NCBI RefSeq assembly: GCF_900104305.1
Contig: NZ_FNJC01000004.1
Span: 186,001-250,000, forward strand
DNA length: 64,000 nucleotides
Source: Filomicrobium insigne
GTDB lineage: Bacteria; Pseudomonadota; Alphaproteobacteria; Rhizobiales; Hyphomicrobiaceae
Reading direction: 5' to 3'
A program made the translations under genes and the position numbers. The stretch's first letter is position 1. The number at the start of each line of letters is the position of its first letter. The notes below the pieces were generated by a model. The model ran no database searches. It saw only the letters and a program-made list of their open reading frames with translations, and was not told where the DNA came from. This document shows, piece by piece, positions 4,427 through 52,999 of the stretch.

Positions 4427-5503
4427 ATGCGCACGTACAAAATTGCTGCGATTCCAGGCGATGGCATCGGGACAGAAGTCGTCTCGGCGGGAATCGAAGT
4501 CCTTAATGCGCTGGCAATGCGCGACGGCAATTTTGAGTTCTCTTTCGACCATTTCGACTGGGGTGGAGAGCTCTATAAGAAGACCGGTCGCATGATGCCG
4601 GAGGATGGCCGAGACCAGATCCGTGACCATGACGCGATCCTTTTCGGGTCGGCCGGTCACCCAGAGATTCCCGACCACATCACGCTGTGGGGCTTGAGAC
4701 TCAACATCTGCCAACCCTTCGACCAGTACGCCAACGTGCGCCCTACCCGCATTCTGCCGGGGATCAAATCTCCGCTGCGCGGCGTCACTGAGAAGGAGCT
4801 CGACTGGGTCATCATCCGCGAGAACTCAGAGGGCGAATATGCTGGTGTCGGCGGCCGGGTGCATCAAGGTTCGCCGCTGGAAGCGGCGACGGATGTCGCG
4901 ATGTTTACGCGCCCTGGGGTGGAGAGGATTATCCGCTTCGGTTTCAAGCTGGCACAATCACGTCCAGCGAAACATCTCACCGTCGTTACAAAGTCCAACG
5001 CGCAGCGCCACGCTATGGTCATGTGGGACGAGATTGCCGCTGAGGTCGCCAAGGAGTTTCCGGGCGTTACTTGGGACAAGATGCTGGTCGACGCGATGAC
5101 CGTGCGCATGGTGATGCAGCCAGAATCACTCGACACGATCGTGGCGACCAACCTACACGCCGACATCCTGTCGGATCTTGCCGCCGCACTTGCTGGCTCG
5201 CTCGGCATTGCGCCGACGGCGAACCTAAATCCCGAACGGAACTTCCCTTCCATGTTCGAGCCCATCCATGGATCGGCGTTCGACATCACGGGTAAAGGTG
5301 TTGCCAACCCTATTGGGACTTTCTGGACGGCGGTCATGATGTGCGAACATCTCGGCGAGAACGATGCCGCGAACCGCCTGATGAAAGCCGTTGAACGCGT
5401 AACGGCGGACGAGCGTTTCCACACCCCAGACCTCGGCGGTAAGGCCCGGACCGCAGACGTTACGGCGGCGGTGATCGACGCGATCCAGGGGGAAAACGCC
5501 TGA
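4427..5503 (+). CDS. Tartrate/D-malate-type dehydrogenase (isopropylmalate dehydrogenase superfamily)
   Basis: This 358-residue beta-decarboxylating dehydrogenase starts at ATG 4427 with MRTYKIAAIPGDGIGTEV, the N-terminal signature of the superfamily. The open frame extends upstream to 4139 but overlaps the transporter gene and is not coding there. The segment AGHPEIPDHITLWGLRLN, leading into FDQYANVRP, is typical of the tartrate dehydrogenase/DmlA branch rather than LeuB. Metal- and substrate-binding residues are visible in LVDAMTVRMV and in NLHADILSDLAAALAGSLG. The family oxidises a 2-hydroxy acid with NAD+ and often decarboxylates the product. Encoded together with LeuCD-like proteins, it probably acts on the 3-hydroxy-2-substituted acid they produce. 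The exact substrate is unknown; D-malate, tartrate or a 3-alkylmalate are all possible. Confidence 0.88.
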   Translation: MRTYKIAAIPGDGIGTEVVSAGIEVLNALAMRDGNFEFSFDHFDWGGELYKKTGRMMPEDGRDQIRDHDAILFGSAGHPEIPDHITLWGLRLNICQPFDQYANVRPTRILPGIKSPLRGVTEKELDWVIIRENSEGEYAGVGGRVHQGSPLEAATDVAMFTRPGVERIIRFGFKLAQSRPAKHLTVVTKSNAQRHAMVMWDEIAAEVAKEFPGVTWDKMLVDAMTVRMVMQPESLDTIVATNLHADILSDLAAALAGSLGIAPTANLNPERNFPSMFEPIHGSAFDITGKGVANPIGTFWTAVMMCEHLGENDAANRLMKAVERVTADERFHTPDLGGKARTADVTAAVIDAIQGENA

Positions 5504-5529
5504 CATCCGGATCTACAATCGAGGCGGCC

Positions 5530-36003: not shown

Positions 36004-38121
36004 TTAGCTGACGGCGGTTTCGGTTTTGCCGGCGATCAACAATGCGAACGCATAATCGTGGGCTGATTCTTTGAGTGCCGTGAAACGACCTGATGCTCCA
36101 CTATGGCCAGCCTCCATGTTGATACGTAATAGGACCAGCTTGTCGGATGTATTGTGTTCCCGCAGCCTTGCGATCCATTTGGCAGGCTCCCAGTACGTGA
36201 CGCGAGGATCTGTCAGTCCGGTATAGGCGAGGATGTGTGGATAGGGCTGGTCCTTCACGTTGTCGTAGGGGCTGTAGGAGCGGATGATTTCGAACTGCTC
36301 AGGGCTTTTCAGCGGATTGCCCCATTCCAGCCATTCAGGCGGGGTGAGCGGAAGTGTTGCGTCGAGCATCGTGTTTAGAACGTCGACAAAGGGCACGTCG
36401 GCGATAATGCCGAGAAACAGGTCTGGTGCCATGTTTGCGACGGCTCCCATGAGCATGCCTCCGGCGGACCCGCCGTTGGCAACTATGCGTCCGCGTTTGG
36501 TGAAGCCCTCACTGACCAAATGCTCTCCGGCCGCGATGAAATCCTTGAAGGTATTTGTCTTCTTTTCGAGCTTTCCGTCCGTGTACCAGCGATAGCCTTT
36601 TTCCTTGCCCCCACGAATATGGGCGATGGCATAGACAAAGCCTCGATCAACAAGTGACAAGCGCGTCGTGGAGAACGACGCCGGGATCGAAATCCCGTAA
36701 GAGCCATAGCCGTACAGAAGTGCGGGCGCGGAGCCGTCAAGCGGGGTGTCCTTGTGATACAGGAGGGAGACTGGAACTGTTTCCCCATTGGCAGTTGGCG
36801 CTTGCAGGCGTCGTGTCACGTAGTTGGCAGGGTTGTGGCCGCTGGGCACTTCCTGGCGTTTGCGCAATGTGCGTGCGCGGCTTTCCATATCGTAGTCATA
36901 GACCTCGGCGGGGGTGGTCATGGAGGAATACGTAAAGCGGATTGCCGTTGTGTCGTATTCGTAGCCGTGTGACAGGCCGAGCGCGTAGGCTTCTTCATCG
37001 AACGATATTTCATGCTCTGAGCTATCGTCGAATTTGGAGATGACGATACGCGGCAGGCCGTCTTCCCGTTCAAGCCGGACCAGATGATTTTTGTAGGCAA
37101 CGGCCTCGATGATAAGGCGCCCAGGGCGATGCGGGATGATTTCGCGCCAGTTCTCTTGCCCAGGATTGTTGACGGGAGCCTCAACGATCCGGAAGTCTAC
37201 CGCGTCGCCCGAATTGGTCAGGATTACAAGCGCATCATTGTGGTGCTCGATGCTATATTCATGGCCGGCTTGACGGGGAGCAACCAAGCGCGGTTCTGTG
37301 CTGGGATTGTCGGCGTCGATTAGGTAGACTTCGCTCGTTTGGTGATCGTGTGCGTCGATCAGAATGAAACGGGAAGACTGGGTCTTGCCGATTCCGACAT
37401 AAAAGGCGCTGTCTGGCTCATGGTAGACTCGTACGTCGTCCGTGTGGGGTGTCCCTATAACGTGGCGGTAGACGGACAACGGACGGTGATTTTCATCAAG
37501 GCGCACATAGACGATCGTGTTGGAGTCGTTTATCCAAACGAAATCGCCTCGCGTGTCGGGAATCACGTCTTCAAGATCTTGGCCCGTATCGAGGTCGCGA
37601 ATACGGATCGTGTAAAGTTCCGAGCCCTTCTCGTCGACAGCATAGGCAAGGCGTTTGTGATCGGGGCTATGCTGGCTTCCGCCTAAACTCCAGTACGGCT
37701 TATCTTTCGCGAGCTCGTTTCCATCCAGCAGGATAGTGACGTCGCCGCCCTCACGGGGCTGGCGGCAAAGTTGCGGATATTGTCCCCCTGTGACGAAACG
37801 GTATGAGTAAGCCCATGATCCGTCGGGTGTGGGAACAGTGCTGTCATCCTCCTTGATCCGAGCCTTCATTTCGTCAAACAGCTCGGATTGTAACGTAGCG
37901 GTACTCGCAAGCGCGGCGTTGGTGTATTCGTTTTCGGCTTCGAGATGAGCTCGAATGGCGGAATCGAGCCTATCTGGTGCCCGCATCACTTCCTGCCAGT
38001 TTTCTGCCCGCAACCACGAATACTCGTCCTCGATCGTGATCCCGTGATGGGTAGCGGCAGTTGATTTGCGTGTGGCGCGCGGCGGCTTAATGCCGGTGGG
38101 CCGGAGGGAGTGAGCGGTCAT
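36004..38121 (-). CDS. ptrB: Oligopeptidase B (prolyl oligopeptidase family, S9A)
   Basis: This 705-residue cytoplasmic serine peptidase cleaves short peptides after Arg or Lys. The N-terminal beta-propeller covers about residues 75-420. The catalytic domain has the nucleophile Ser near residue 552 in NGGSAGGMLMG, the Asp in YTGLTDPRVTYWEPAKW and the His in NMEAGHSGASGRF. DEYSWLRAENWQEV near the N-terminus is a family signature. Length matches E. coli PtrB. It converges with the membrane/winged-helix gene across a two-way terminator. Confidence 0.93.
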   Translation of the reverse strand: MTAHSLRPTGIKPPRATRKSTAATHHGITIEDEYSWLRAENWQEVMRAPDRLDSAIRAHLEAENEYTNAALASTATLQSELFDEMKARIKEDDSTVPTPDGSWAYSYRFVTGGQYPQLCRQPREGGDVTILLDGNELAKDKPYWSLGGSQHSPDHKRLAYAVDEKGSELYTIRIRDLDTGQDLEDVIPDTRGDFVWINDSNTIVYVRLDENHRPLSVYRHVIGTPHTDDVRVYHEPDSAFYVGIGKTQSSRFILIDAHDHQTSEVYLIDADNPSTEPRLVAPRQAGHEYSIEHHNDALVILTNSGDAVDFRIVEAPVNNPGQENWREIIPHRPGRLIIEAVAYKNHLVRLEREDGLPRIVISKFDDSSEHEISFDEEAYALGLSHGYEYDTTAIRFTYSSMTTPAEVYDYDMESRARTLRKRQEVPSGHNPANYVTRRLQAPTANGETVPVSLLYHKDTPLDGSAPALLYGYGSYGISIPASFSTTRLSLVDRGFVYAIAHIRGGKEKGYRWYTDGKLEKKTNTFKDFIAAGEHLVSEGFTKRGRIVANGGSAGGMLMGAVANMAPDLFLGIIADVPFVDVLNTMLDATLPLTPPEWLEWGNPLKSPEQFEIIRSYSPYDNVKDQPYPHILAYTGLTDPRVTYWEPAKWIARLREHNTSDKLVLLRINMEAGHSGASGRFTALKESAHDYAFALLIAGKTETAVS

Positions 38122-40978: not shown

Positions 40979-41389
40979 TTATGTGCTGGCGGCGGCGAGT
41001 TGGGCGTCGGCGCGGATGCGCTCCACCATGGATGAGAAGCCGTTGGAGCGCTGCGGGGTGAGGTGTTCCTTCAACCCTAAGTCGGCGAAGACCGCGCGGG
41101 CATCAGTTTTCAGAATGTGGTCCGGGGTCTGGTTCTGATAGATAGCGAACAGGATCGCGATGAGGCCGCGCACGATATGCGCATCGCTGTCGCCGACGAT
41201 CTGCAGGCGGCCATCTTCCGTCTTGGTTGCGAGCCAGACCTGGCTGGCGCAGCCGCGGACCTTGTTTGTGTCCGTCTTCAACTCCGGGTTCATTTCCGGC
41301 AACGCCTTGCCCAGCTCGATGACGTAGCGGTAGCGGTCTTCCCAATCGTCGAGGAGGGCAAAGTCGTCACTGATTTCGGCAAGGGTCAT
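40979..41389 (-). CDS. sufE: SufE family protein
   Basis: This 136-residue protein starts at MTLAEISDDFALLDDWEDRY, four codons inside the frame. The sulphur-accepting cysteine lies in NKVRGCASQVWLAT, and the surrounding fold elements (GLIAILFAIYQNQTPDHIL, LGLKEHLTPQRSNGF) are complete. SufE takes persulphide sulphur from the cysteine desulphurase SufS and passes it on for iron-sulphur cluster assembly. The suf operon itself is not in the window. Confidence 0.92.
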   Translation of the reverse strand: MTLAEISDDFALLDDWEDRYRYVIELGKALPEMNPELKTDTNKVRGCASQVWLATKTEDGRLQIVGDSDAHIVRGLIAILFAIYQNQTPDHILKTDARAVFADLGLKEHLTPQRSNGFSSMVERIRADAQLAAAST

Positions 41390-41610
41390 GGGTCTTATCA
41401 AAATTTCCGGGTGATTTCAGGTCTACGGCGCGGCGATGTCCGCGACAGACGCGCCGTGCGGTGTTCATGCTTTAGATAATGTGTTTGGGCGGGCGGGGCA
41501 ATGAAACGCCCGTTTTACCGTCCCTTCAGCATTCCAGCAGGATTTTCAGGGCCCGTTTTCCGGGCTGAAGTCCCACTCTCGACCTTTTTTCAAAAAAAAT
41601 TTCGCCGGGA

Positions 41611-41637
41611 TGTCGATCTGGCCGTTTCTCGTTCGTC
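41611..41637 (+). promoter_or_regulatory. ECF42-type promoter, TGTCGA-N17-CGTC
   Basis: A -35 element TGTCGA (41611-41616) and a -10 element CGTC (41634-41637) are separated by 17 bases, 52 bases upstream of the DGPF gene start. TGTCGA with CGTC or CGAC is the motif I recall for ECF42 sigma factors. The spacer also matches that of the second copy at 50839 at most positions, including CTCGTT directly before the -10. Confidence 0.75.
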
Positions 41638-41688
41638 GTATGAGCAGGACGGCCAGTGGGGCCTCCTTGGATCACAGGAGACGAGACA

Positions 41689-42111
41689 ATGCGTGTGATG
41701 GTTTTTGTGAAGGCGACGACGGACAGCGAAGAAGGCGTCATGCCTCCGGCGGAATTGCTCGTCGAGATGGGTAAGTACAACGAAGAGTTGGTCAATGCCG
41801 GCATCATGCTGGCGGGGGATGGTCTCAAGCCGTCCTCGCAGGGCAAGCGCGTCGCGTTTGACGGGCCGGGGCGCACCGTGATTGACGGGCCGTTCGCGGA
41901 GACCCGCGAGTTGGTTGCCGGGTACTGGATGTGGGAAGTCAAGGACATGGCCGAGGCCGTGGAGTGGGTGAAGCGCTGCCCCAACCCGATGATGGGTCCG
42001 AGCGAGATCGAGATCCGCCCGGTTTACGAGATGGCCGACTTCAACGAGATCATGACGCCCGAAGCGGAGGCGGTGCACGACCGGGTTCGCGACAAGCTGG
42101 AGGGCAAGTGA
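41689..42111 (+). CDS. YCII/DGPF domain protein
   Basis: This 140-residue protein starts at MRVMVFVKATTDSEEGVMPP, fixed by AGGAGA upstream. It belongs to the YCII-related fold, with the DGPF motif in TVIDGPFAETRELVAGYWMW. DGPF proteins are small dimeric proteins of unknown activity, often encoded beside ECF42 sigma factors. This gene has its own ECF42-type promoter and is followed by a VOC-family gene, another usual partner. A strong GC hairpin follows the stop. Confidence 0.9.
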   Translation: MRVMVFVKATTDSEEGVMPPAELLVEMGKYNEELVNAGIMLAGDGLKPSSQGKRVAFDGPGRTVIDGPFAETRELVAGYWMWEVKDMAEAVEWVKRCPNPMMGPSEIEIRPVYEMADFNEIMTPEAEAVHDRVRDKLEGK

Positions 42112-42129
42112 GGCGGATGTGATCTGCGC

Positions 42130-42150
42130 GCGCGGCCGGAGAGGCCGCGC
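42130..42150 (+). terminator. Terminator-like hairpin
   Basis: An 8-base GC stem, GCGCGGCC (42130-42137) and GGCCGCGC (42143-42150), with a GGAGA loop lies 19 bases after the DGPF gene. Only a short T-stretch follows, so it may weaken rather than stop transcription into the VOC gene. Confidence 0.5.
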
Positions 42151-42190
42151 TCGCTTTCAGACAACAGACAATCTAGTTCTTTGTTTTGTC

Positions 42191-42236
42191 GTGCTTCTTT
42201 TCGGAAAAACCGGTTCCCACTTTTCTAGGCAAGCAC
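42191..42236. repeat. CCGG-centred palindromic repeat, copy 1
   Basis: This element is bounded by GTGCTT and AAGCAC and centred on AACCGGTT (42208-42215), followed by CCCACTTTTC. A nearly identical 34-35-base core recurs at 44699-44732. I recall such CCGGTTCCCACTTTTC elements as widespread short interspersed repeats in Hyphomicrobiales genomes. Confidence 0.8.
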
Positions 42237-42254
42237 TCTAAAGGGATGCCCGAA

Positions 42255-42665
42255 ATGCCCAAGATGATCTTCCTCAATCTGCCGGTGAAAGACCTCGCCG
42301 CCGCGACCCGCTTTTATGAAGCGATCGGATGCACGAAGAACGACCAGTTCAGCGATGAGAACGCGTCGTCCATGATGTGGTCGGACGCAATTGTGTTTCA
42401 TCTGCTGACGCACGACTATTTCTCGACGTTCGCGCATAAGCCGATTGCCGATGCGCACAGGAGTGTCGGCATGCTGATCGCCTTGTCGTGTGGCCGGCGC
42501 TCGGATGTGGACGAGATGGTGGACGCTGCCGCGGCGGCGGGTGGCACGGCCGATCCGCGTGAGCGTCAGGACATGGGCTTCATGTACGTGCGCAGCTTTG
42601 TCGATCCCGATGGGCACGTGTTCGAGCCGGCCTGGATGGATATGTCGGCGATGGGTGGGGCGTGA
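42255..42665 (+). CDS. VOC family (glyoxalase/dioxygenase-fold) protein
   Basis: This 136-residue protein starts MPKMIFLNLPVKDLAAATRF; ATG 42246 is a possible start nine bases earlier, but AAGGG at 42241-42245 is better spaced for 42255. It has the paired beta-alpha-beta-beta-beta modules of the vicinal-oxygen-chelate fold, ending in MYVRSFVDPDGHVFEPAWMD, whose Glu is a typical metal ligand. Members include glyoxalases and PhnB-like proteins. PhnB-like VOC genes commonly accompany DGPF and ECF42 genes, so it may belong to the same regulon by read-through. Confidence 0.87.
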   Translation: MPKMIFLNLPVKDLAAATRFYEAIGCTKNDQFSDENASSMMWSDAIVFHLLTHDYFSTFAHKPIADAHRSVGMLIALSCGRRSDVDEMVDAAAAAGGTADPRERQDMGFMYVRSFVDPDGHVFEPAWMDMSAMGGA

Positions 42666-42864
42666 GGAGGGGAGCGCGGAGCGGGCGCGCGGTTGCGATG
42701 GCCGCGCCTCGTGCTGCCTGTGCACTTGAGCCGAGCAAAATTCCTCAACAGAAATAATTCATCCGAGCACGCCCTAGTTTGACCGCGCCGTGCGAATCGG
42801 TGCGCTTTCAATTGCTCCAATATGTTTTGGCCCGGCGCTGGAAAAGCGCCGAGGGGAGGGATTT

Positions 42865-43266
42865 ATGAAGCGCATTATTTCAATCGTTATTGTCGGGACA
42901 GTAGTTGCAGCATGTGCGGGGCCGAAACTCGTACCCGTTCGCATGGATGGTCAGAGAATTACAGAAAGCCCAGTGTTGGCACATGGCTACGAAGCAGATC
43001 ACACCATCTGTCGAGGTGAGACGCAGAAGGCCAACCTATCCAAGACCAAGCATTACTATGGTGGTGTTGCCGGAATTGCCGAAAGCCTCGATCAAGCGCA
43101 AGCGGCGGGCGATGTCTATGCCGGCTGCATGGCGCAAAGAGGCTATGCCATGGTCAAGGAAGAGGAGGCGGAAGCCAAGCGAGCCCAGTACAGCGCGGTC
43201 GCTAGCTCTGTGGCTGGGGCCTCTCCGTTGGCGACGGGTTCAGTCACTAAGCAAGCTGGGCGTTGA
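42865..43266 (+). CDS. Small lipoprotein of unknown function
   Basis: This 133-residue protein has a lipoprotein signal (MKRIISIVIVGTVVAACAGP) with the lipobox VAAC, so Cys17 is probably lipidated. GAGGGGAGGG precedes the start. The mature part contains AHGYEADHTICRGETQKANL and later AAGDVYAGCMAQRGYAMVKE, with the C..G/CM.QRGY ending typical of small conserved envelope lipoproteins. Function unknown. Confidence 0.75.
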   Translation: MKRIISIVIVGTVVAACAGPKLVPVRMDGQRITESPVLAHGYEADHTICRGETQKANLSKTKHYYGGVAGIAESLDQAQAAGDVYAGCMAQRGYAMVKEEEAEAKRAQYSAVASSVAGASPLATGSVTKQAGR

Positions 43267-43303
43267 ATTTAAGAGCGGTCTCCCAGCATTTGTGCGTCAT
43301 TAG

Positions 43304-44365
43304 ACGTTTCGGGTTCGTGCGGACGCTCAGCATCTCGACACCCTTATTTCCGATCCGAATGCCGTCTATGATGTGGAGGTAAACCTAGACGATAGAAGTC
43401 GCGGATTTAAATGGTTTTTTTCGTTTTTTGTGACATTCGCGGCTGACACAAAGGGCGGCCCAGCAGAAGATGCTATCCTGCTCTTAGATGAGCCTGGTCT
43501 ATATCTTCACGCGGCCTCTCAAGGTGATTTATTAAAGTACCTCACCGGAGATATTCCAAACCAAGTAATCTATACGACTCACTCTCCATTTATGGTGCCA
43601 ACAGACAATTTGGATGCAGTCAGAACCGTCAAAATCGCTGCTGACACAGGCACGACTGTTACAAACGATCCAACCGGTGATGCTCGTACTCTGTTCCCCT
43701 TGCAGACGGCCCTTGGCTATACCTTGGCTCAAAGTCTCTTTGTAGGTCCGGCGAATCTCGTCGTTGAGGGAGTTACCGATTTTTGGATTGTTTCGGCAGT
43801 GTCGGAGTATTTGCGTGACAAGAATCGACCGGCGCTCCCTCCGGAAGTTGCGCTAACCCCAGCGGGAGGAGCTCAGAAGATTTCGTATATGGTCGCTCTT
43901 CTGGCATCTCAGCAGCTAAACGTGCTTGTGCTGCTTGATGATGAGAAACAGGCTCGCAACACGAGCGAGGAATTGGTTAAGGGCAAATTGATCCGGCAGG
44001 ACAGCGTCATCTTCACAACGGAGCTGTATTCATCAGATGCGCCGGCAGAAGCAGATATTGAAGACCTGCTAAACCCGAGTGTCTATGAGGCTTTGGTGCG
44101 CGAGGCTTACAAGTCAGAATTGAAGGGAACTACACTTGCCTTGAACTCAAACATTCCGCGAATCGTGAAGCGCTTTGAGACGGCATTTTCGACCGTGGGC
44201 AAGGAGTTTAACAAGACGCGTGCTGCACGGCTTTTCTTGAGCAAAATGGCGGTGGATCCAGAGGAGGTCATGCCAAGTGAATCTGCCGACAGATTTCAAC
44301 GGCTTTTTGAGCTGGTTGCAGAACGTTTTCAGCGGCAGAAGTCCCGTGAGAACAAATTCGGCTGA
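43304..44365 (+). pseudogene. N-terminally truncated AAA/TOPRIM (OLD-like) ATPase remnant
   Basis: This frame encodes about 330-353 residues corresponding to the second half of an AAA-type ATPase with a TOPRIM domain. Walker B (DAILLLDEPGLYLHA) and the following YTTHSPFMVP switch are present, then the TOPRIM start NLVVEGVTDFWIV and LVLLDDEKQA. Walker A and everything before it are missing. Codons between the stop at 43301 and the first GTG (43373) still look like family sequence (AVYDVEVNLDDRSRGFKWFF), so the gene was cut rather than started here. OLD-like proteins are nucleases of phage defence or DNA repair; this copy should be inactive. Confidence 0.75.
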
Positions 44366-44480
44366 TTGACAACGCAGTAGCCGAATTTAATCAGTCAGCC
44401 CTGCTCCGGCTTTGTCACCATCCAAATACCAAACAATCCGTATACACCTCTACCTTTAGCCACATCTCCAGGAGACCACG

Positions 44481-44940
44481 ATGAGTACGCGCGCGATGCT
44501 TTGGGTGGGGTGGGGGCTGTCCGGTCTTTTCGCCCTGTTTATGCTGGGGGCGTCCGTCACGCCGAAGCTGGCGCAGATGCCGATTGCGGAAGAGACGATG
44601 GCGCAGCTCGGCAGGCCTCCGGGCTACGCGTTCATGATCGGGACCATCGAGCTTGTTTGCGTCGTGCTCTACCTCATCCCGCGGACCGGTTTTTTCCGTG
44701 CTTCTTATCGGAAAACCGGTTCCCACTTTTCCGGAAGCCTCTCGTGTGCTCGGCACGGTGCTGATGATGGGGCTGCTCGGCGGCGCGATGGCGACGCAGA
44801 TCCGCGCGGAGAGCCCGCTCTTCAGCCACTTTTTTAGTGTTTAACTGGCTGTTCAGCCTGTCTATCTGGGGCTGGTCATGTGGGGCGGACTGTGGCTGCG
44901 CGATGCGCGGGTGCGGGCGGTGTTTCCGTTTATGAGGTAG
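44481..44940 (+). pseudogene. DoxX-like membrane protein, disrupted by a repeat element
   Basis: The first 72 codons encode a DoxX-like start: MSTRAMLWVGWGLSGLFALF, then PIAEETMAQLGRPPGYAFMI and ELVCVVLYLIPRT. A palindromic repeat (about 44690-44740) then interrupts the gene. Its end resumes in the +1 frame with VLGTVLMMGLLGGAMATQIR and AESPLFSH, followed by an in-frame TAA at 44842 and then PVYLGLVMWGGLWLRDARVR to a stop at 44940. Rejoined, it would be a four-helix protein of about 130 residues. DoxX genes are common partners of ECF42 and DGPF genes, so it may once have belonged to that set. Confidence 0.8.
44699..44732. repeat. CCGG-centred palindromic repeat, copy 2, inside the DoxX pseudogene
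   Basis: The sequence GTGCTTCTTATCGGAAAA continues through AACCGGTT (44714-44721) to CCCACTTTTC. It differs from copy 1 by one substitution and one missing A over this stretch. Its presence shifts the reading frame of the DoxX-like gene. Confidence 0.85.
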
Positions 44941-44954
44941 GCGTGCCTTCTCGT

Positions 44955-45681
44955 GTCGTCCCGGCACTTGCTGGCGGGACCCAAGGTGCTACTGGGGCTT
45001 CCGTTCGCCGGTTGTGCTCCACTGCTGCCGCCGCGCACGCTGAACCTTGGATCCCGTGGACATTTTCTTTTGCCGCGCCTCCGGCACGAGCCACGGGATG
45101 ACACATTCCCTACCGTCATCCCGGCATTTATTGCCGGGATCCAACTCTCGGCTGGGGAGGCCGCTGTGCTGTTGTGCTTCACCCTTGCGTCGGCGACGGC
45201 TGAGCCTTGGATCCCGCGAACACTTGTTTGCCGCGCCTCCGGCACGAGTCCCGGGATGACATGTTGTCGGGGTTCCGAGTGCAACATCCGCCAGACCCTC
45301 TACCGTCGTCCCGGCACAGGTCACGGGATGACACATTCCCTACCGTCATCCCGGCATTTATTGCCGGGATCCAACTCTCGGCTGGGGAGGCCGCTGTGCT
45401 GTTGTGCTTCACCCTTGCGTCGGCGACGGCTGAGCCTTGGATCCCGCGAACACTTGTTTGCCGCGCCTCCGGCACGAGTCCCGGGATGACATGTTGTCGA
45501 AGTTCCGAGCGCAACTGCCGTACATCCCCTACCGTCGTCCCGGCACTTGTTGCCGGTGGCGTGGCTGGAACGAAGTTACCGGGACCCAACTCTCGGCTGG
45601 GGTGTCCGTTCGCTGGTTGTGCTCCACCGCTACCACGGAGCCTGCTGGACCTTGGATACCGGGGACGAGCCCCGGTATGAC
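44955..45681. repeat. Array of large GTCATCCCGG / CCGGGATGAC hairpin repeats
   Basis: Five units begin with GTCATCCCGG or GTCGTCCCGG and end with its reverse complement: 44955-45102, 45115-45260, a short form 45305-45332, 45345-45490 and 45534-45681. Full units are about 147 bases long and each can fold into one long hairpin. Inner sequence is shared (ACTCTCGGCTGGGG, CCTTGGATCCCG, GCCGCGCCTCCGGCACGAG). Open frames across the array on both strands are by-products. This is a known kind of intergenic repeat in alphaproteobacteria. Confidence 0.88.
45092..45499 (+). repeat. Perfect 178-bp direct duplication within the hairpin array
   Basis: Bases 45092-45269 are identical to 45322-45499, an offset of 230 bases. 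Identity breaks at 45270/45500 (G versus A). It covers a whole hairpin unit plus the 5' spacer and indicates a very recent tandem duplication, with the short unit 45305-45332 lying at the join. Confidence 0.88.
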
Positions 45682-45692
45682 ATATGGTTCGG

Positions 45693-45977
45693 TTAGGGCG
45701 TATCGGAATGGCCGAGGCTGCGGTCGGGAGCGATCAGATCGCGGACGCGCTGCTTGAGTTCCTTCGTCTCCGGAAAGCGGCCTTCCGCCTTTCGTGACCA
45801 GATGACGTCGCCGTCAAGACGCACCTCGAAGACACCGCCGGTCGTGTCCGGCGTGAGGGTCACGGAGCCCAGGTCTTCGGCGAACGTGGTCAGAAGCTCC
45901 TGCGCCATCCAGGAGGCGCGCAGGCCCCAGCCGCATAACCGGCAGTAGGTGATTTCAACGTGTGGGCTTGCGGGCAT
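45693..45977 (-). CDS. SelT/SelW/SelH (Rdx) family redox protein
   Basis: This 94-residue protein has the thioredoxin-like Rdx fold with a CxxC motif near the N-terminus (VEITYCRLCGWGLRASWM), then the GGVFEVRLDGDVIWSRKAEG strand pair and the FPETKELKQRVRDLI helix. Bacterial members use cysteine in place of selenocysteine and have unknown redox partners. The start is ten bases from the stop of the GNAT gene on the same strand, so the two are probably co-transcribed. Confidence 0.9.
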   Translation of the reverse strand: MPASPHVEITYCRLCGWGLRASWMAQELLTTFAEDLGSVTLTPDTTGGVFEVRLDGDVIWSRKAEGRFPETKELKQRVRDLIAPDRSLGHSDTP

Positions 45978-45986
45978 GGTGACACC

Positions 45987-46481
45987 TCATTCGGACCCGG
46001 CTGTTCCCGGGCTTGGCTTTTTCTCCACCGCGATGTCGAAGTGCAGGACGTCCTCGCGGATGCCGAGTTTTGTGTAAAGCGCGATGGCCGGGGCGTCGAT
46101 ATGGTCGGCCTGGACGTAGATGACCCAAGCGGCGCGTTCGGCGGCGTGGGTGCGCAGGTGTTCAATGAGAGCGGTGGCGATGCCCCGGCGGCGATGGGCT
46201 TCGTGGACGGCGAGATCGTAAATGTAGAGCTCGCGGCGCGCCTGCTCGAACTTTTCGAGTTCGTAGCCGACGAGGGCGCCAACGACGTCTTCGCCGGCAA
46301 GTGCGACGAGGGCCACGACATGCTCCTTGGCGAGCAGGGTCGTGACGTAGGTATCGTCTGGTGGTGCGGCGCCATAGGTGTCGGGCTCCGCGAAGGCCTC
46401 GCCGAACAAGGCGTTCATCTTGCGGAAGAGGGGGAGATCGGCGGGGCCGAGGCGGCGGATGGCGGCGGGCTCAGATGACAT
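45987..46481 (-). CDS. GNAT acetyltransferase resembling AAC(3)-I
   Basis: This 164-residue acetyltransferase has the acetyl-CoA loop VHEAHRRRGIATALIEHL and the pattern NALFGEAFAEPDTYGAAPP, ELEKFEQARRELYIYDLAV and AIALYTKLGIREDVLHFDI, which closely follow the AAC(3)-I group of aminoglycoside N-acetyltransferases. Such chromosomal relatives occur in environmental bacteria, and their natural substrates are often unknown, so resistance cannot be claimed from sequence. It precedes the Rdx gene on the same strand. Confidence 0.85.
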   Translation of the reverse strand: MSSEPAAIRRLGPADLPLFRKMNALFGEAFAEPDTYGAAPPDDTYVTTLLAKEHVVALVALAGEDVVGALVGYELEKFEQARRELYIYDLAVHEAHRRRGIATALIEHLRTHAAERAAWVIYVQADHIDAPAIALYTKLGIREDVLHFDIAVEKKPSPGTAGSE

Positions 46482-46522
46482 GCGCCTAGCTGTAACACGG
46501 CGGCGCGGGAGGGCAACGCGGA

Positions 46523-46987
46523 TCAGAAGACCGGCTTGATCTTGTCCAGGGCGGCGATGCCGGTGTCGGCATCCGCCTTCGTCACCCAGTGATGGGTGAT
46601 GACGTGGTAGCCGTCCTGTTGGATCGAGAGATACTGGGTCGCGCCCGGACGGAAGATCTCTGTCATTGAAGGCCCGTCCGGATTAAAGACCGCGTTGGGA
46701 TTGCTGATTACCAGTTGACGCTGGCCGGAGTCGACGGTGAAGCGTGTGTGCCCGCAGTATTCGATTTTGCCGACTTCCTTGCCGTCGACCCTGATCGTCG
46801 GCGTGTAGGTCATGATCTTGCCGCCGGTGAGGTAGTTGATCGGCGCGCATTGGAAGTAGGCGACGACCGTCGTCCGCCCGCCTTGGAGTTTTGCGAGTTC
46901 ATCTGCCGTGAGCTTGGGCTGCTGTGCGCAGCCGGCAACGGTGAATGCGATGAGAACGACTGCGGCGAAACTCTTTCGGAAAAGCAT
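46523..46987 (-). CDS. Lipoprotein of unknown function
   Basis: This 154-residue protein has a lipoprotein signal, MLFRKSFAAVVLIAFTVAGC, with the modified Cys at residue 20. The mature part (QQPKLTADELAKLQGGRTTV then beta-rich sequence, IRVDGKEVGKIEYCGHTRFT) looks like a small beta-sandwich similar to DUF2846-type lipoproteins, but I am not certain of the family. It stands alone between the GNAT and TetR genes. Confidence 0.72.
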   Translation of the reverse strand: MLFRKSFAAVVLIAFTVAGCAQQPKLTADELAKLQGGRTTVVAYFQCAPINYLTGGKIMTYTPTIRVDGKEVGKIEYCGHTRFTVDSGQRQLVISNPNAVFNPDGPSMTEIFRPGATQYLSIQQDGYHVITHHWVTKADADTGIAALDKIKPVF

Positions 46988-47123
46988 AACCTGGAAATCC
47001 TCCGGACGCTGACGAACATATCTTCCTTGGGCGGAGGACTTGCTTCCGGCAATAGGATCTGTGCCAGGTTGCCGTTTCTGACTGTGGGCAAGTGGCTGGG
47101 GCGCAACGTGATGCGTTGAGCTT

Positions 47124-47753
47124 TTACCGCTTGCCGTAGGATGCCATGAACGTGCGCACGGCGATGCCGATCACGTGGGCGATGCGTTCGTCGCTTGGTG
47201 CGGGGGCGGCGGCGAACAGGACCGGCTTGAACATCGTCGACTGGCAGGAATCCAGGAACTGCGCGGCGGCAACCTCGCAGTCGTCAATGGCGACGACACC
47301 GGCTTTCACCTGAGCCTCAAGGTATTGCGAGAGGCGCTGGATCCCATATTGGGGGCCGAACTCGTAGAACTTGCGGCCGATTTCCGGCATGCGCTCGGCG
47401 ATGCCGATGACAGTGCGCAGTGCTGACATGGCGGAGGGCTGGCAGAGGAAGCGGACGTAGGCGTCGCCGAGGCGCGTGAGAACGGCTTCGACGTTGTGAT
47501 CGCTGGCATCCAGGGCGAAGACCTGCTGCGCCTGGCCAGCGCGCTCGTCCTCGACGATGGCTTCGAACAAGCTCTCCTTATTTTCGAAGTAGACATAGAG
47601 CGTGCCCTTCGACACGCCCGCGACGCGCGCGATTTCGCCCATGCTGGCCGCATCGAAGCCGTGGGTCAGGAAGAGCTGTCGCGCGCCTTCCATGATCTGC
47701 CGTCGCTTGGCGCTTTCTTCGACGGCCGGTGCGTCGGTGACCTTGCTCGACAT
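47124..47753 (-). CDS. TetR family repressor of the adjacent efflux operon
   Basis: This 209-residue regulator has the TetR helix-turn-helix at about residues 15-60: RQIMEGARQLFLTHGFDAAS and MGEIARVAGVSKGTLYVYFE. The C-terminal ligand domain resembles the AefR/TetR_C group. It is divergent from the HlyD-DHA2 efflux genes. Two copies of the same 19-base palindrome lie 29 bases from its own start and 25 bases from the efflux start, so it most likely represses both itself and the pump, with release by a pump substrate. Confidence 0.92.
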   Translation of the reverse strand: MSSKVTDAPAVEESAKRRQIMEGARQLFLTHGFDAASMGEIARVAGVSKGTLYVYFENKESLFEAIVEDERAGQAQQVFALDASDHNVEAVLTRLGDAYVRFLCQPSAMSALRTVIGIAERMPEIGRKFYEFGPQYGIQRLSQYLEAQVKAGVVAIDDCEVAAAQFLDSCQSTMFKPVLFAAAPAPSDERIAHVIGIAVRTFMASYGKR

Positions 47754-47781
47754 TTTGTGATCGCTCCGGAGGTGAGTGTGA

Positions 47782-47800
47782 TGACCGAACCGTTCAGTCA
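47782..47800. promoter_or_regulatory. TetR operator, copy 1
   Basis: TGACCGAACCGTTCAGTCA is a nearly perfect palindrome 29 bases before the TetR start. It is the exact reverse complement of copy 2 at 47839-47857. Confidence 0.85.
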
Positions 47801-47838
47801 GTATTGACGTAGGCGTATAAGATGGCTAAGTCAAGCCA

Positions 47839-47857
47839 TGACTGAACGGTTCGGTCA
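47839..47857. promoter_or_regulatory. TetR operator, copy 2
   Basis: TGACTGAACGGTTCGGTCA lies 25 bases before the HlyD start and is the exact reverse complement of copy 1. The pair spans the divergent promoters of the repressor and the efflux operon. Confidence 0.85.
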
Positions 47858-47881
47858 ATCATGATTTAAGCAGACGAATAT

Positions 47882-49180
47882 ATGCTAAAGGTTCGTGATA
47901 ACAATGAGCTAAAGTCTTTCGAGGACGGCGATGTGCCGGTCTCGGAGCCGGATTTCACGCCTTCGTCCCTGACTGTCGAAGCGAAGGGGCCGCGTGTTGT
48001 GCCCCCGCCTGCAGACCCTGAGAGCCGCGAGGCGGAGAAGGCGCCTCAAGATGCGCCGGGGGCGAAGCCCGACGCGGAGGCTTCTCCGCCTGCGCCAGCC
48101 AAGCGGCATCGGCTGCGGCGGCTTGTGATTGTTGCGGTTGCGTTGATCGCGCTGGGCGCTGGCGGCTGGTATGGACATTACTGGTGGACGACGGGCCGTT
48201 TCCTCGTTTCGACCGATGACGCTTATGTGGGCGCGCACACGGCGACGCTGGCGGCCAAGGTTTCAGGCTACATTTCTTCCATTGATGTTCGCGATAACCA
48301 GGAGGTGCATCCGGGTGAGGTGATCGCGCGTATCGATGACGGTGACTACAAGCTGGCGGTTCAGTCCGCCCGCGATAACGTGGCGATCCAGCAAGCTGCG
48401 ATCGCGCGGATCGGCAAGCAAGTGGACGCCCAGGACGCAGCAGTTTCACAGGCCAAGGCTCAGCTTATTTCCGCCAACGCCGCAGCCAAACAAGCCGAAC
48501 TTGAATTGGTGCGTCAGCAGCAACTCGCAAATCGTGATTATGCCAGCCGGCAGGCGCTGGAGCAGGCGCAGGCGAACCGTGATCAGACGGCGGCGGCTGT
48601 GGAAGGGGCGAAGGCCGGTGTGACGGCGGCGGAGACCAATGTGGCTGTGCTCAAGGCGCAGCAGCAGGAAGCCGAGCGGACACTCAAGCAACAGCAGACC
48701 GCACTGGCCAAGGCTGAGCGGGATCTGTCCTTCACTGTAATTCGCGCGCCGATTGATGGCGTGATCGGAAACCGCGCCATGCAGGTGGGCGACTACGTGC
48801 AGCCGGGGCAGCGTCTCGCGGCGCTGGTGCCACTGGATGACGTCTATATCGATGCGAATTTCAAGGAGACGCAGCTTGCCGATCTGCGTCCGGGGCAGCC
48901 GGTCACCGTGTCAGTGGACGCGCTTCCTGATCATGACCTCAAGGGCAGCGTTGTGAGTGTGGCGCCGGCTTCAGGCTCGGTCTTCTCCCTACTGCCGCCG
49001 GATAATGCGACAGGCAACTTCACCAAAATCGTACAGCGCATCCCGGTGCGGATCCGTGTGCCGGTCTCGGACAAGAAGCATGAGCTTTTGCGGCCCGGTA
49101 TGTCGGTCGTCGTAACGGTGGATGCGAAGCCAGGCGCGACCGAGGGGGCCTCTGTCGCTGCAGTTCAAAGCGTCAAGTAA
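47882..49180 (+). CDS. HlyD/EmrA-type membrane fusion protein
   Basis: This 432-residue periplasmic adaptor has an acidic and proline-rich cytoplasmic N-terminus, one membrane helix (about residues 82-101, RLVIVAVALIALGAGGWYGH) and a long periplasmic part. Biotinyl-lipoyl halves are seen in VSGYISSIDVRDNQEVHPGE and FTVIRAPIDGVIGNRAMQVG, around a glutamine-rich coiled-coil hairpin (about 165-280). It links the MFS pump encoded 25 bases downstream to an outer-membrane channel, as EmrA does for EmrB. Confidence 0.92.
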   Translation: MLKVRDNNELKSFEDGDVPVSEPDFTPSSLTVEAKGPRVVPPPADPESREAEKAPQDAPGAKPDAEASPPAPAKRHRLRRLVIVAVALIALGAGGWYGHYWWTTGRFLVSTDDAYVGAHTATLAAKVSGYISSIDVRDNQEVHPGEVIARIDDGDYKLAVQSARDNVAIQQAAIARIGKQVDAQDAAVSQAKAQLISANAAAKQAELELVRQQQLANRDYASRQALEQAQANRDQTAAAVEGAKAGVTAAETNVAVLKAQQQEAERTLKQQQTALAKAERDLSFTVIRAPIDGVIGNRAMQVGDYVQPGQRLAALVPLDDVYIDANFKETQLADLRPGQPVTVSVDALPDHDLKGSVVSVAPASGSVFSLLPPDNATGNFTKIVQRIPVRIRVPVSDKKHELLRPGMSVVVTVDAKPGATEGASVAAVQSVK

Positions 49181-49205
49181 GTGTGAGAGATAAGCGAGCC
49201 ATGCC

Positions 49206-50777
49206 ATGGCCGATACGAACGGAATATCTTCAGAGATTGCTGACGATCGCATAGATCCGCGCCGGCTCATCGCGTTCCTGACAATGGTATTCGGGATGTT
49301 CATGGCGATCCTGGACATCCAGATCGTTTCGGCGTCGCTGACGGAGATCCAGGCTGGTCTCGCAGCGAGCAGTAATGAGATCACCTGGGTTCAGACAGCG
49401 TACCTCATCGCCGAAGTGGTGATGATCCCGTTGTCGGGGTTCCTGTCTCGCGCGCTGGGGACGCGCATCCTGTTCGCCGTTTCTGCGGGAGGCTTTGCGG
49501 CTGCCAGCCTCATGTGCGGGCTTTCGACCTCTATCAACGAGATGATCATATGGCGCGCCATTCAGGGGTTCATCGGCGGCGGTATGATCCCGACGGTTTT
49601 CGCCTCAGCCTACCTGATTTTTCCGCGGTCGCGCATGAATGTGATTGTACCGTTGATCGGGTTGGTTGCGACATTGGCACCGACGATCGGTCCGACGGTG
49701 GGAGGTTACCTCACCAATATCCTGTCATGGCACTGGTTGTTCTTCATCAACGTTATTCCGGGTATCTGTGTGGCGATCGCCGCATTGGCTCTCATTGATT
49801 TCGATGAGCCCGATTTCAGTCTCTTCAATACTTTCGACTGGTTTGGCTTGTTGTTTATGGCTGGGTTCCTAGGCGGCCTCCAATATGTTCTGGAAGAGGG
49901 GCCGCGCAATGACTGGTTCGGTGACGATGCCGTTCTCGTTATGGCGTGGGTTTCCGGGCTTTCGGCGATTGCGTTCTTTGTGCGGGTTTTGACAGCGCGC
50001 ACGCCCATCGTCGATCTGTCGTCCTTCCAAAACCGCAACTTCGCAGTGGGCTCGCTCTTCTCGTTTGTGCTTGGCATCGGTCTTTATGGGTTGACGTATC
50101 TCTATCCCATCTACCTCGGCCAGATCCGTGGGTATGACGCACTCATGATTGGCGAGACGATGTTTGTGTCCGGTTTGGCCATGTTCCTCACTGCTCCGGT
50201 GGCCGGGCGGTTGATGCCGGTAGTCGACAAGCGCTTGATGCTGATGGTGGGCTTTCTGTTTTTCGCGGTTGGCACGTGGTGGATGACGTATCTGACCAGC
50301 GATTGGGATTTCTATGAGCTTTTATGGCCGCAGATCTTCCGTGGCGTTGGGCTGATGCTGTCAATCATTCCGATCAACGACATCGCGCTTGGCACTCTGC
50401 CGCCTGAGCGGGTGAAGAATGCTTCGGGCCTGTTCAACTTGATGCGCAACCTTGGTGGTGCCGTAGGTCTTGCGGGACTGACGACGGTCTTGAATGATCG
50501 CACGGATCTCCACTTGGCGCGTTTGCACGAGTCGATCACCTGGTCGCGGCCAGTCGTAGAAGAGACGCTCAACATGCTGACGGAGCGTTTTCACTCTTTC
50601 GGTAGCGATGCGCATGCCATGGCGCTCAAGCAGCTGATGCAGATCACGCATCAGCAAGGTGTCGTCATGGCCTTTTCCGATGTGTTTTTGCTGCTGACGC
50701 TGCTCTTTGCCGGCCTCGCGTTGCTTTCGCTTCTGGTCAGCAAGCCGAAGGCGGCTGCCGGTGGCGCGGCACATTAA
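49206..50777 (+). CDS. DHA2 family MFS efflux transporter (EmrB-like)
   Basis: This 523-residue protein has 14 predicted membrane helices, the DHA2 number. Signature elements are FMAILDIQIVSASLTEIQAG in helix 1, then ITWVQTAYLIAEVVMIPLSG, and motif C-like GLVATLAPTIGPTVGGYL in helix 5. It exports hydrophobic drugs or other compounds with protons through the HlyD adaptor. The operon is controlled by the divergent TetR gene. Specificity is unknown. Confidence 0.92.
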   Translation: MADTNGISSEIADDRIDPRRLIAFLTMVFGMFMAILDIQIVSASLTEIQAGLAASSNEITWVQTAYLIAEVVMIPLSGFLSRALGTRILFAVSAGGFAAASLMCGLSTSINEMIIWRAIQGFIGGGMIPTVFASAYLIFPRSRMNVIVPLIGLVATLAPTIGPTVGGYLTNILSWHWLFFINVIPGICVAIAALALIDFDEPDFSLFNTFDWFGLLFMAGFLGGLQYVLEEGPRNDWFGDDAVLVMAWVSGLSAIAFFVRVLTARTPIVDLSSFQNRNFAVGSLFSFVLGIGLYGLTYLYPIYLGQIRGYDALMIGETMFVSGLAMFLTAPVAGRLMPVVDKRLMLMVGFLFFAVGTWWMTYLTSDWDFYELLWPQIFRGVGLMLSIIPINDIALGTLPPERVKNASGLFNLMRNLGGAVGLAGLTTVLNDRTDLHLARLHESITWSRPVVEETLNMLTERFHSFGSDAHAMALKQLMQITHQQGVVMAFSDVFLLLTLLFAGLALLSLLVSKPKAAAGGAAH

Positions 50778-50779
50778 GC

Positions 50780-50802
50780 ACGGTGGGTGGGCACTCCACC
50801 GT
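50780..50802 (+). terminator. Hairpin after the efflux operon
   Basis: ACGGTGG (50780-50786) and CCACCGT (50796-50802) form a perfect 7-base stem right after the efflux stop codon. The bases that follow are A rather than T, so it is not a classical rho-independent terminator on this strand. It may still protect or shorten the 3' end. Confidence 0.4.
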
Positions 50803-50838
50803 CGGAAAAAAAATCGCTCGAGGAAAAAACATCCATCG

Positions 50839-50865
50839 TGTCGATCCGGGTGTTGCTCGTTCGAC
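50839..50865 (+). promoter_or_regulatory. ECF42-type promoter, TGTCGA-N17-CGAC
   Basis: TGTCGA (50839-50844) and CGAC (50862-50865) are 17 bases apart, 82 bases before the DGPF gene that precedes the sigma-factor gene. The whole element closely matches the one at 41611-41637, including a shared CTCGTT before the -10. It suggests that the sigma factor drives its own operon. Confidence 0.8.
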
Positions 50866-50946
50866 GTTACGGCAGAGCCGGCCTAATTCTCCCGCGTTAA
50901 AACCGCAAATGTCGGCTCATAACCGGATGCAGAAGGATGAGTGACG

Positions 50947-51300
50947 ATGAAATTCCTATCGATGGTCAAGTCTGCGGAGCACCAAGGGCCGCCGCCCATG
51001 GTGCTGATGGAAGCGGTCGGTGGTCTCGTAGAGGAGGCGACGAAGGCGGGTATCGTCATCAATGTGGGTGGGCTAATGCCGAGCCAGATGGGCGCTCGTG
51101 TCCGTCTCTCCAATGGCAAATTGAGTGTGACCGATGGCCCATTTGCAGAGGCCAGAGAGGTTATTGGGGGATATGCCATGTTTGAGTTGAAGAGCAAGGA
51201 AGAGGCGATTGATTGGGCCAAACGCCTTCTGGCTCTGCATCTGGAGCATTGGCCGGAACGGGAAGGTGAGTGTGAAATTCGCCAAATTGCCTCGGAATAG
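50947..51300 (+). CDS. YCII/DGPF domain protein, sigma-linked
   Basis: This 117-residue protein starts at MKFLSMVKSAEHQGPPPMVL (ATG 50947; a GTG lies two codons upstream). AGAAGGA lies 10-16 bases before it. It carries the DGPF motif in VTDGPFAEAREVIGGYAMFE and has the YCII fold. It lies 66 bases upstream of the ECF42 sigma-factor gene on the same strand. DGPF proteins are the typical partners of ECF42 sigma factors; whether they sense a signal or act as enzymes is not known. Confidence 0.9.
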   Translation: MKFLSMVKSAEHQGPPPMVLMEAVGGLVEEATKAGIVINVGGLMPSQMGARVRLSNGKLSVTDGPFAEAREVIGGYAMFELKSKEEAIDWAKRLLALHLEHWPEREGECEIRQIASE

Positions 51301-51366
51301 GGAAACCTCTTCAGTCCATTAGGCGAAAAGTTGCCTGGATGCGGTGAGTTGCGATAGTCGGTAGCC

Positions 51367-52629
51367 ATGACTGCTACCGACGTTCAAGCGAGCATTGACG
51401 CCATCTGGCGTATCGAGCAGGCCCGGCTTATTGCCGGGCTCGTGCGGATTGTGCGCGATGTGGATCGTGCAGAAGAGCTGGCTCAGGAAGCGCTTGTGGC
51501 CGCGCTGGTGGAATGGCCGAAAACCGGTGTGCCCGTAAAGCCCGGAGCGTGGTTGATGGCTGCAGCGAAACGCCGAGCCATCGACGGATTTCGCCGCGAC
51601 AAGATGCTGGAGCGCAAACATGCGGAGATTGGACGAGATCAGGAGAACGTTCGCGACACGAGCATAGAAAAGATCGAGACCGCCATGGACGATGATCTTG
51701 GCGATGAACTCTTAGGGCTGATCTTCACCGCATGCCACCCGATTTTATCGGCTCAGGCGCGCGCGGCTCTCACGCTGCGGCTGATCGGCGGGCTTTCGAC
51801 GGATGAGATTGCCCGTGCCTTCCTTTCGAGTGAAGCGACTGTGGCGCAGCGGATCGTCCGGGCGAAGAAGACGATCGGGAAGGCGGGTCTAACTTTTGAG
51901 GTGCCGCGCGGGGCGGCCCTTCAGGAACGGCTGGCTTCGGTCTTGGAGGTTATCTACCTCATTTTCAATGAGGGTTATGCGGCGACCGCCGGGGAGGATT
52001 TGATCCGTCCGGCCTTGTGTACGGAGGCTCAGCGTCTTGGCCGTATCCTTGCCGCCGCTCTTTCAAATGAGGCGGAAGTCTTCGGTCTGCTTGCTCTTAT
52101 GGAAATTCAGGCATCGCGTCTGGGAGCCCGCACAGCGACGGATGGTTCGCTTCTGACATTGAATGAACAGAACCGCGCGCGCTGGGATCAACTTTTGATC
52201 CGGCGAGGGCTCGCTGCATTGGAGCGCGCTCAGGCGCTTGGAGGTGCACATTCGCCCTATACGCTGCAGGCAGCGCTTGCCGCTTGTCATGCGCGGGCTC
52301 GTAGGGTTGAGGAGACCGACTGGGAGCGGATTTGCTCACTTTACGACACGCTGCGTGAGGTCATGCCATCACCCGTGGTCGATCTGAATAGGGCGGTTGC
52401 GCATAGCATGGCGTTTGGCCCTGAGGCCGGATTGGTGCTGCTGGATGCGATTGAACAGGCGGAGGCGTTGGGTGGCTATGCCCCTTTGCCGGCGGCCCGG
52501 GGTGACTTTCTCTTCCGTGCGGGGCGGTTAGGAGAGGCCAAGACCGAATTTGAGCGCGCTGCGGTTCTGACCCGCAATTCCCGCGAGAAGGCGTTCCTTC
52601 TCGCGCGTGCGCGCTCTTGCGAGCGATGA
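51367..52629 (+). CDS. ECF42-type RNA polymerase sigma factor with C-terminal TPR-like extension
   Basis: This 420-residue protein has sigma region 2 (ARLIAGLVRIVRDVDRAEEL, WPKTGVPVKPGAWLMAAAKR then RAIDGFRRDKMLERK) and region 4 (TLRLIGGLSTDEIARAFLSS, EATVAQRIVRAKKTIGKAG). It then continues for more than 200 residues, where typical ECF factors stop near 190. The extension is helical and TPR-like (LLALMEIQASRLGARTATDG; ARGDFLFRAGRLGEAKTEF). This layout and the DGPF neighbour fit ECF42 (DUF6596). No anti-sigma gene is present, so control presumably acts through the extension. Confidence 0.92.
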   Translation: MTATDVQASIDAIWRIEQARLIAGLVRIVRDVDRAEELAQEALVAALVEWPKTGVPVKPGAWLMAAAKRRAIDGFRRDKMLERKHAEIGRDQENVRDTSIEKIETAMDDDLGDELLGLIFTACHPILSAQARAALTLRLIGGLSTDEIARAFLSSEATVAQRIVRAKKTIGKAGLTFEVPRGAALQERLASVLEVIYLIFNEGYAATAGEDLIRPALCTEAQRLGRILAAALSNEAEVFGLLALMEIQASRLGARTATDGSLLTLNEQNRARWDQLLIRRGLAALERAQALGGAHSPYTLQAALAACHARARRVEETDWERICSLYDTLREVMPSPVVDLNRAVAHSMAFGPEAGLVLLDAIEQAEALGGYAPLPAARGDFLFRAGRLGEAKTEFERAAVLTRNSREKAFLLARARSCER

Positions 52630-52642
52630 CCTCTCTCGGCGT

Positions 52643-52999
52643 CTAGTTTGTGAGCTCGTGGCCCCGCCAGGCCGGAAGGCGGTCGCTGGGGGTCAGCGTG
52701 CCTCGCTCAAGAGAAGATATAGCGTAGTGATCAAGCTGGCCATCTTCCGGCATACGGCCCAGGTTGCTGGCGGCAAGATTGCGGCGAACCGCGCCTTCCA
52801 TCATGGCCAAGGCCTGCCCGCCTTTAACGTACACGTTATCCCACGTGGACATGGCCTGATCGCACAGATGCGGGTCGCGCACGCAAGTCTGTGACGTCCA
52901 ATCGTAAGCCTCACCGACGCGCTCCAATAGCCGTTCGCGATCAATGCCGTCGCGCGGCACGAAGATCACGATCAGAGCCAGGATCAGCAGTAGTCTCAT
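52643..52999 (-). CDS. DUF5330-like small envelope protein
   Basis: This 118-residue protein has an N-terminal hydrophobic signal or anchor (MRLLLILALIVIFVPRDGID), then helices with two cysteines (YDWTSQTCVRDPHLCDQAMS). This pattern resembles the DUF5330 family of alphaproteobacteria. It converges with the sigma-factor gene, with 13 bases between stops. Function unknown. Confidence 0.7.
   Translation of the reverse strand: MRLLLILALIVIFVPRDGIDRERLLERVGEAYDWTSQTCVRDPHLCDQAMSTWDNVYVKGGQALAMMEGAVRRNLAASNLGRMPEDGQLDHYAISSLERGTLTPSDRLPAWRGHELTN

Follow-up and report, generated by a model that had tools for sequence, protein, structure and literature searches.

A segment of the Filomicrobium insigne genome appears to carry a small regulon governed by an extracytoplasmic function (ECF) sigma factor of the ECF42 type. 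We analysed a window of 64,000 nucleotides (assembly GCF_900104305.1, contig NZ_FNJC01000004.1, positions 186,001 to 250,000 of the forward strand; coordinates below are those of the window), in which positions 41402-52642 hold the sigma factor gene, two YCII/DGPF genes, termed d1 and d2, and two matching promoter elements, termed P1 and P2. With a probability of about 0.87, we consider this segment to be a horizontally acquired ECF42 module whose sigma factor recognises both elements and would thereby drive d1, together with a VOC (glyoxalase-like) gene behind it, and d2, together with its own gene. That the sigma factor turns on d1 and d2 through the matching promoters is very probable, judging from the comparisons described below. 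Judged by its sequence, the system is well formed but ordinary among those of the known ECF42 kind. What our analysis adds to the original prediction, which was made from the letters of the window, is that the regulon lies in an acquired-looking segment in which a normally compact cluster is split, and that an extended consensus, not two boxes, identifies the targets.

The promoter elements and their genes

The target promoter of the ECF42 group consists of the boxes TGTCGA and CGWC. Both elements in the window have this form on the forward strand, with a 17-base spacer (N17): P1, TGTCGA-N17-CGTC, lies at 41611-41637 (TGTCGATCTGGCCGTTTCTCGTTCGTC), and P2, TGTCGA-N17-CGAC, lies at 50839-50865 (TGTCGATCCGGGTGTTGCTCGTTCGAC), with the positions, boxes and spacing exactly as the original prediction had given them. 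The extended −10 region of P1 reads CTCGTTCGTC, followed by GT. P1 starts 78 bases before the ATG of d1 (41689), and P2 starts 108 bases before that of d2 (50947).

One DGPF gene had been predicted after each element, with an ECF sigma factor after the second, and this arrangement was found. Both genes exceed the curated cut-off of PF03795 (24 bits), and they are the only matches to this family in the whole genome: d1 (41689-42111, forward strand, 140 residues) scored 64.9 bits and d2 (50947-51300, forward strand, 117 residues) scored 41.1 bits. The sigma factor gene (51367-52629, forward strand), whose product bears a DUF6596 extension, follows d2. The nearest relatives of d1 adjoin ECF42 genes. 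As a separate observation, a d1-type gene of one relative (G014; L161, approximately 5502-6091) is in two frames near its start and may be broken or misassembled.

The VOC gene (42255-42665, forward strand; PF00903) begins 143 bp behind d1. It has no separate motif, as the four matches to the loose pattern (N16-18) in the window all lie elsewhere, and it is probably read from P1 together with d1, the predicted output gene. A homologue of this VOC gene stands in the order YCII-VOC-sigma in 7 of 80 related loci, and the gene therefore fits this type of cluster. Because no motif lies between d2 and the sigma factor gene, P2 would most likely drive both, creating positive feedback, and the segment is perhaps self-activating through P2.

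The motif at related ECF42 loci

Is this promoter type a regular companion of DGPF genes at ECF42 loci? For this comparison we took the 80 best ECF42-type loci from at least 589 relatives. They contained 102 YCII matches, present in 72 of the 80 (counting a match anywhere in the locus), from which we kept the 92 DGPF genes with E ≤1e-20 and at least 100 bases of upstream sequence, dropping 10. TGTCGA-N16-18-CGWC was found within 160 bases before 58 of these 92 genes, compared with a mean of 0.2 and a maximum of 2 in 50 shuffles, and with 4 of 1291 other open reading frames (ORFs) in the same loci. In a logo of 56 N17 sites, where conservation of the two boxes is imposed by the way the sites were chosen and the remaining columns are free, we observed an A/T-rich block approximately 10-18 bases before the −35 box, a T following TGTCGA, and the sequence YSGTTCGWCGT in the −10 region. 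P1 and P2 both follow this logo, CTCGTT included, and an A8T3 tract on the forward strand at 41592-41602, just 5′ of the −35 box of P1, coincides with its A/T-rich block. The original prediction had stressed that the two spacers agree in most bases; the agreement is real, in that the elements are identical at 22 of 27 positions, but the shared bases, CTCGTT among them, are the consensus of the group and are not specific to the pair. The assignment of the motif to ECF42 is borne out: DGPF genes in ECF42 loci are preceded by the same promoter type, which also agrees with the motifs listed for Sinorhizobium meliloti RpoE10 (PMC6180224).

A 27-base matrix was trained on the 56 N17 promoter sites of relatives only, which themselves score between 18.7 and 36.6, with a median of 31.5. 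By this matrix, P1 scores 36.6 and P2 scores 33.9. In 29 further DGPF loci, the best-ranked d2 matches from a search of the order with the own locus excluded, a site scoring above 18 lay within 170 bases in 20, compared with 6 of 1160 control stretches; three of the 29 (L201, L202 and L213), all of them hits, overlap the training loci, leaving 17 of 26. Among the 66 related loci in which a same-strand YCII gene lies at most 2.6 kb before the sigma factor gene, a site was present at the first YCII gene in 53, at 4 of 16 later YCII genes, and within 170 bp of the sigma factor gene itself in none, in a count whose matrix was trained partly on the same loci. We rejected a separate sigma promoter on this last ground.

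A strict 28-base element was found in 5 of 59 relative genomes, at seven sites compared with one for the reversed control, and six of the seven sites precede YCII genes. It was present in four of the eight genomes whose ECF42 is at least 60% identical and in one of the 51 others (p = 0.0007; p = 0.004 when the own genome is excluded), where the 60% line was chosen after the identities were seen and some of the 51 have homologues at 34-48%. Two occurrences are recorded here as side observations. One, before a YCII gene (L231; G033:C72:30453-30480), may be an orphan target or reflect an assembly gap; the other (L234; G048:C6:143689-143716) lies away from the sigma factor locus, before an ORF whose product resembles, by eye, a protein of the dihydrofolate-reductase type.

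Genome-wide rarity of the full element

We considered that the pair might simply be a coincidence of short boxes. The bare motif is indeed common: the loose pattern (N16-18) occurs four times in the window against 1.5 expected, a count of at least four being reached in 6 of 100 shuffles, and 159 times in the genome (3,847,194 bases in 10 contigs) against 69 for the reversed control, and the two boxes at exactly N17 occur at 28 sites against 20. On these counts, the two boxes carry little weight by themselves. The genome search that the original prediction had proposed, with bare boxes, would thus argue against it, the N17 count being near chance, whereas the full element discriminates. The composite shared by P1 and P2, at up to three mismatches, has no further occurrence in the genome and none in the control, in a search that is circular because the pattern was built from P1 and P2 themselves. 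The matrix, which we applied to the 28 N17 sites and to the 52 sites within one mismatch of TGTCGA-N15-TTCGWC (30 in the control), ranks P1 and P2 first and second of the 28, with the best of the other 26 at 18.8, 15 bits below them. Moreover, the only two DGPF genes of the genome each have one of the elements ahead of them at the usual distance. The full elements are not products of chance, and a coincidence is extremely improbable as an explanation of the pair, even though one site in coding sequence scores 26.7.

This site (C10:140705), the next best after P1 and P2 among the 52, has one mismatch in the −35 box and was rejected as a target since it lies within a mutS-like frame on the same strand. 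The N17 site scoring 18.8 (C7:295126) was likewise rejected, lying antisense within a permease-like frame; both frames were named by eye. A third exact TGTCGA-N15-TTCGWC (C9:720004), with a small ORF 235 bp on along the same strand, was rejected as weak, with a score of 11.7. The remaining sites of the two sets, judged by matrix score only, reach 17.0 at most. For finding targets, the two boxes are too loose, and the extended motif (the A/T tract, TGTCGAT and YSGTTCGWCGT) is better.

Two DGPF genes from different clades

A different account of the match between P1 and P2 would be a recent local duplication of d1 and d2, leaving a promoter copy without present function. The two genes do belong to the same family, lie 9 kb apart and are 41% identical over 93 residues. 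Three observations speak against this account. First, d2 falls in a clade of 22 rows (support 100/99) that excludes d1, in a tree built from few columns and with many forks open; because d1 and d2 stand in different clades, no recent duplication is indicated. Second, identity ends at the motif, being only 17/60 upstream and 18/53 downstream of the elements. Third, both elements match the consensus of unrelated loci. We therefore rejected a recent duplication, which we regard as very improbable, on the tree clades and the identity ending at the motif. The original prediction had argued that descent of the flanking DNA explains the match poorly, and this holds, d1 and d2 being old paralogues that belong to separate clades. 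Its small DGPF regulon is also supported by comparison, the genome having one ECF42-type sigma factor and two DGPF genes, each with an element.

A compact cluster apparently split by passenger genes

The clusters of relatives are compact, usually in the order promoter-DGPF-sigma, whereas that of the window is interrupted by approximately 8 kb including emrAB. In two relatives, G015 and G048, a d1-type and a d2-type YCII gene each have their own site and are followed by the same-strand sigma factor gene, as in the window; these clusters differ in lacking the 8-kb interruption, in having a third YCII gene, and in that the stretch retrieved for them contained no VOC match. Because the order of the VOC gene, the layout in G015 and G048, and the clades of d1 and d2 all match such clusters, the window looks like a normally compact cluster split by approximately 8.1 kb of passenger genes. 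P1 and P2 would thus lie 9 kb apart because a compact cluster has been split within an acquired-looking segment.

This splitting raises the possibility that P2 alone is in use, P1 being a relic and d1-VOC either depending on another promoter or not being read. The passenger genes between VOC and P2, and the habit of relatives to carry a site before the first DGPF gene only (the 53/66 and 4/16 given above), are in keeping with such a relic. On the other hand, P1 scores above P2 and has the A/T tract of the logo, the d1 frame is intact, and G015 and G048 have sites before both the d1-type and the d2-type gene. Although somewhat less remote than a duplication, a relic P1 remains improbable in our judgement, and we prefer the view that both elements are used.

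The passenger genes (42666-50777) encode, in order, a lipoprotein-like protein (by eye), an AAA-type remnant, a broken DoxX, Rdx, GNAT, a second lipoprotein-like protein (by eye), TetR, an HlyD/EmrA-type protein and EmrB. The AAA-type protein (43373-44365) matches only the end of AAA profiles, near the cut-offs, and looks truncated at its start. The DoxX-like gene (44481-44837) aligns with its profile only over the first 58 of 103 positions, the match being lost at a 34-base element (44691-44724) of which a 79% copy is located at 42184-42217, between d1 and VOC. At 44955-45690 lies a cluster of repeats with GTCATCCCGGCA-type ends, in which a 210-base unit recurs 230 bases on with 96% identity. 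A perfect 19-base inverted repeat (47782-47800 and 47839-47857) between tetR and emrA is probably the TetR operator, and emrAB are therefore likely under their own control.

Origin of the segment

The segment lies between sufE (40979-41401, reverse strand) and a small host gene (52643-52999, reverse strand), which are 11,241 bases apart in the window. We found sufE in seven genomes of the same genus, in two of which (L154 and L157) the relevant side reaches the contig end. In three (L155, L156 and L158), a homologue of the small gene, identified by eye only in L155, and the peptidoglycan-binding gene that follows it stand beside sufE; in L159 and L160, a homologue of the peptidase gene at 36004-38121 of the window stands there instead. 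Because another gene lies there, the segment is missing beside sufE in all five testable same-genus genomes. The sigma factor was found in none of eight same-genus genomes, five of which are at least 90% complete, and YCII was found in one of the eight, as a weak match. Neither sufE nor the small gene was seen near the fetched ECF42 loci of relatives. A gain by this genome would be a simpler reading than loss elsewhere. A known plasmid as carrier was rejected, since no record covers 80% of the segment, and the 10 of 17 matching records that were listed match only the emrB part. There are no tRNA genes in the window.

The sigma factor and its extension

The 420-residue sigma factor combines the sigma2 (PF04542, 33.3 bits) and sigma4 (PF08281, 41.1 bits) regions with a C-terminal extension resembling tetratricopeptide repeats (TPR). 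Profile comparison matched residues 1-173 to ECF structures, and the extension contains the only PF20239 (DUF6596) match of the genome, at residues 188-288 with 119.4 bits. A structural model from a 41-sequence alignment (mean predicted local distance difference test score 88.2; predicted template modelling score 0.72) is mostly helical, its part from 182 to 417 included, and has a low-confidence stretch at 87-107. The leading Foldseek matches of this model are TPR proteins (for example 8chy, E = 8.6e-4; 2pl2, TMt 0.71), ECF sigma-H ranks 31st and 46th, and the E-values are modest. In the extension, no TPR family of Pfam attained 0.001, and a profile search of it gave only one weak hit, 6b85 at 379-408. 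We use the name ECF42 for this protein on the basis of its domains, its neighbourhood, in which d2 is the YCII/DGPF gene directly upstream, and the motif. No anti-sigma Pfam family was found among the scanned proteins, three of which (42865-43266, 46523-46987 and 52643-52999) have no Pfam match of any kind. The activity of the sigma factor is presumably gated by its DUF6596/TPR extension.

A sensory role of the TPR extension is an existing proposal for ECF42; the extension has been described as essential for activity and as possibly binding an as yet unnamed protein (PMC8999054, PMC9023288), with the interaction partner termed unidentified and the YCII neighbour suggested to take part in regulation (PMC8999054). 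The three ECF42 proteins named in Streptomyces venezuelae (Sven_0747, Sven_4377 and Sven_7131; PMC8999054) share with the window a TPR-rich extension, of approximately 200 residues and reported to be essential, and a YCII neighbour; in contrast to these three, we found a single ECF42 in the F. insigne genome, with its cluster split by passengers. S. meliloti RpoE10 is alike in having a TPR-type C-terminal extension, no identifiable anti-sigma factor, a YCII gene upstream, TGTCG...CGTC motifs, and targets that lie away from the sigma factor locus and are glyoxalase-like. Among the genes of the two motif-bearing operons that RpoE10 raised are glyoxalase-like ones (PMC6180224). It differs in that the targets found are not YCII genes and two tabulated sites begin with TGTCGG, whereas both predicted targets in the window are YCII genes. 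A literature search pairing DGPF with ECF42 or with ECF sigma factor turned up nothing, which is no proof that the pairing is unpublished, as the main ECF42 papers lay outside that search.

Several observations weigh against an ECF42 module in which both elements are used. Overexpressed RpoE10 left its own upstream YCII-rpoE10 operon unraised, the motif there being said to overlap the transcription start (PMC6180224), and feedback through P2 may therefore fail. In the related loci, 34 of the 92 DGPF genes have no motif, and G012 has an extra site approximately 550 bases before the sigma factor gene, so that in some relatives the sigma factor gene may be read from a promoter of its own. Of the genomes with a close ECF42, half do not contain the strict element, and G033, of the same family, has it before a YCII/DGPF gene, with no ECF42 found in that genome. 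The mutS-like site elsewhere in the genome implies that high scores are possible in coding sequence. Finally, a hairpin between d1 and VOC might lower read-through, with a z of only −0.94.

Implications

Why should one sigma factor be accompanied by two DGPF proteins of different clades? One reading is that their roles are divided: d2, produced from P2 along with the sigma factor, would bind its TPR extension as an anti-sigma substitute or co-activator in a feedback loop, and d1 and VOC, read separately from P1, would form the enzymatic output. We advance this as a speculation that probably does not hold. Its new part is the division between the two clades, the involvement of YCII having already been suggested (PMC8999054). 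If it is true, the split would amount to a natural division of the cluster between a regulatory and an effector DGPF protein.

The genome offers a simple case for the ECF42 family: a single ECF42 accompanied by two DGPF genes and two promoters of full consensus, with no further strong noncoding site among the patterns searched. Because all of it lies in one segment not found in same-genus genomes, the whole regulon could be taken out as a unit.

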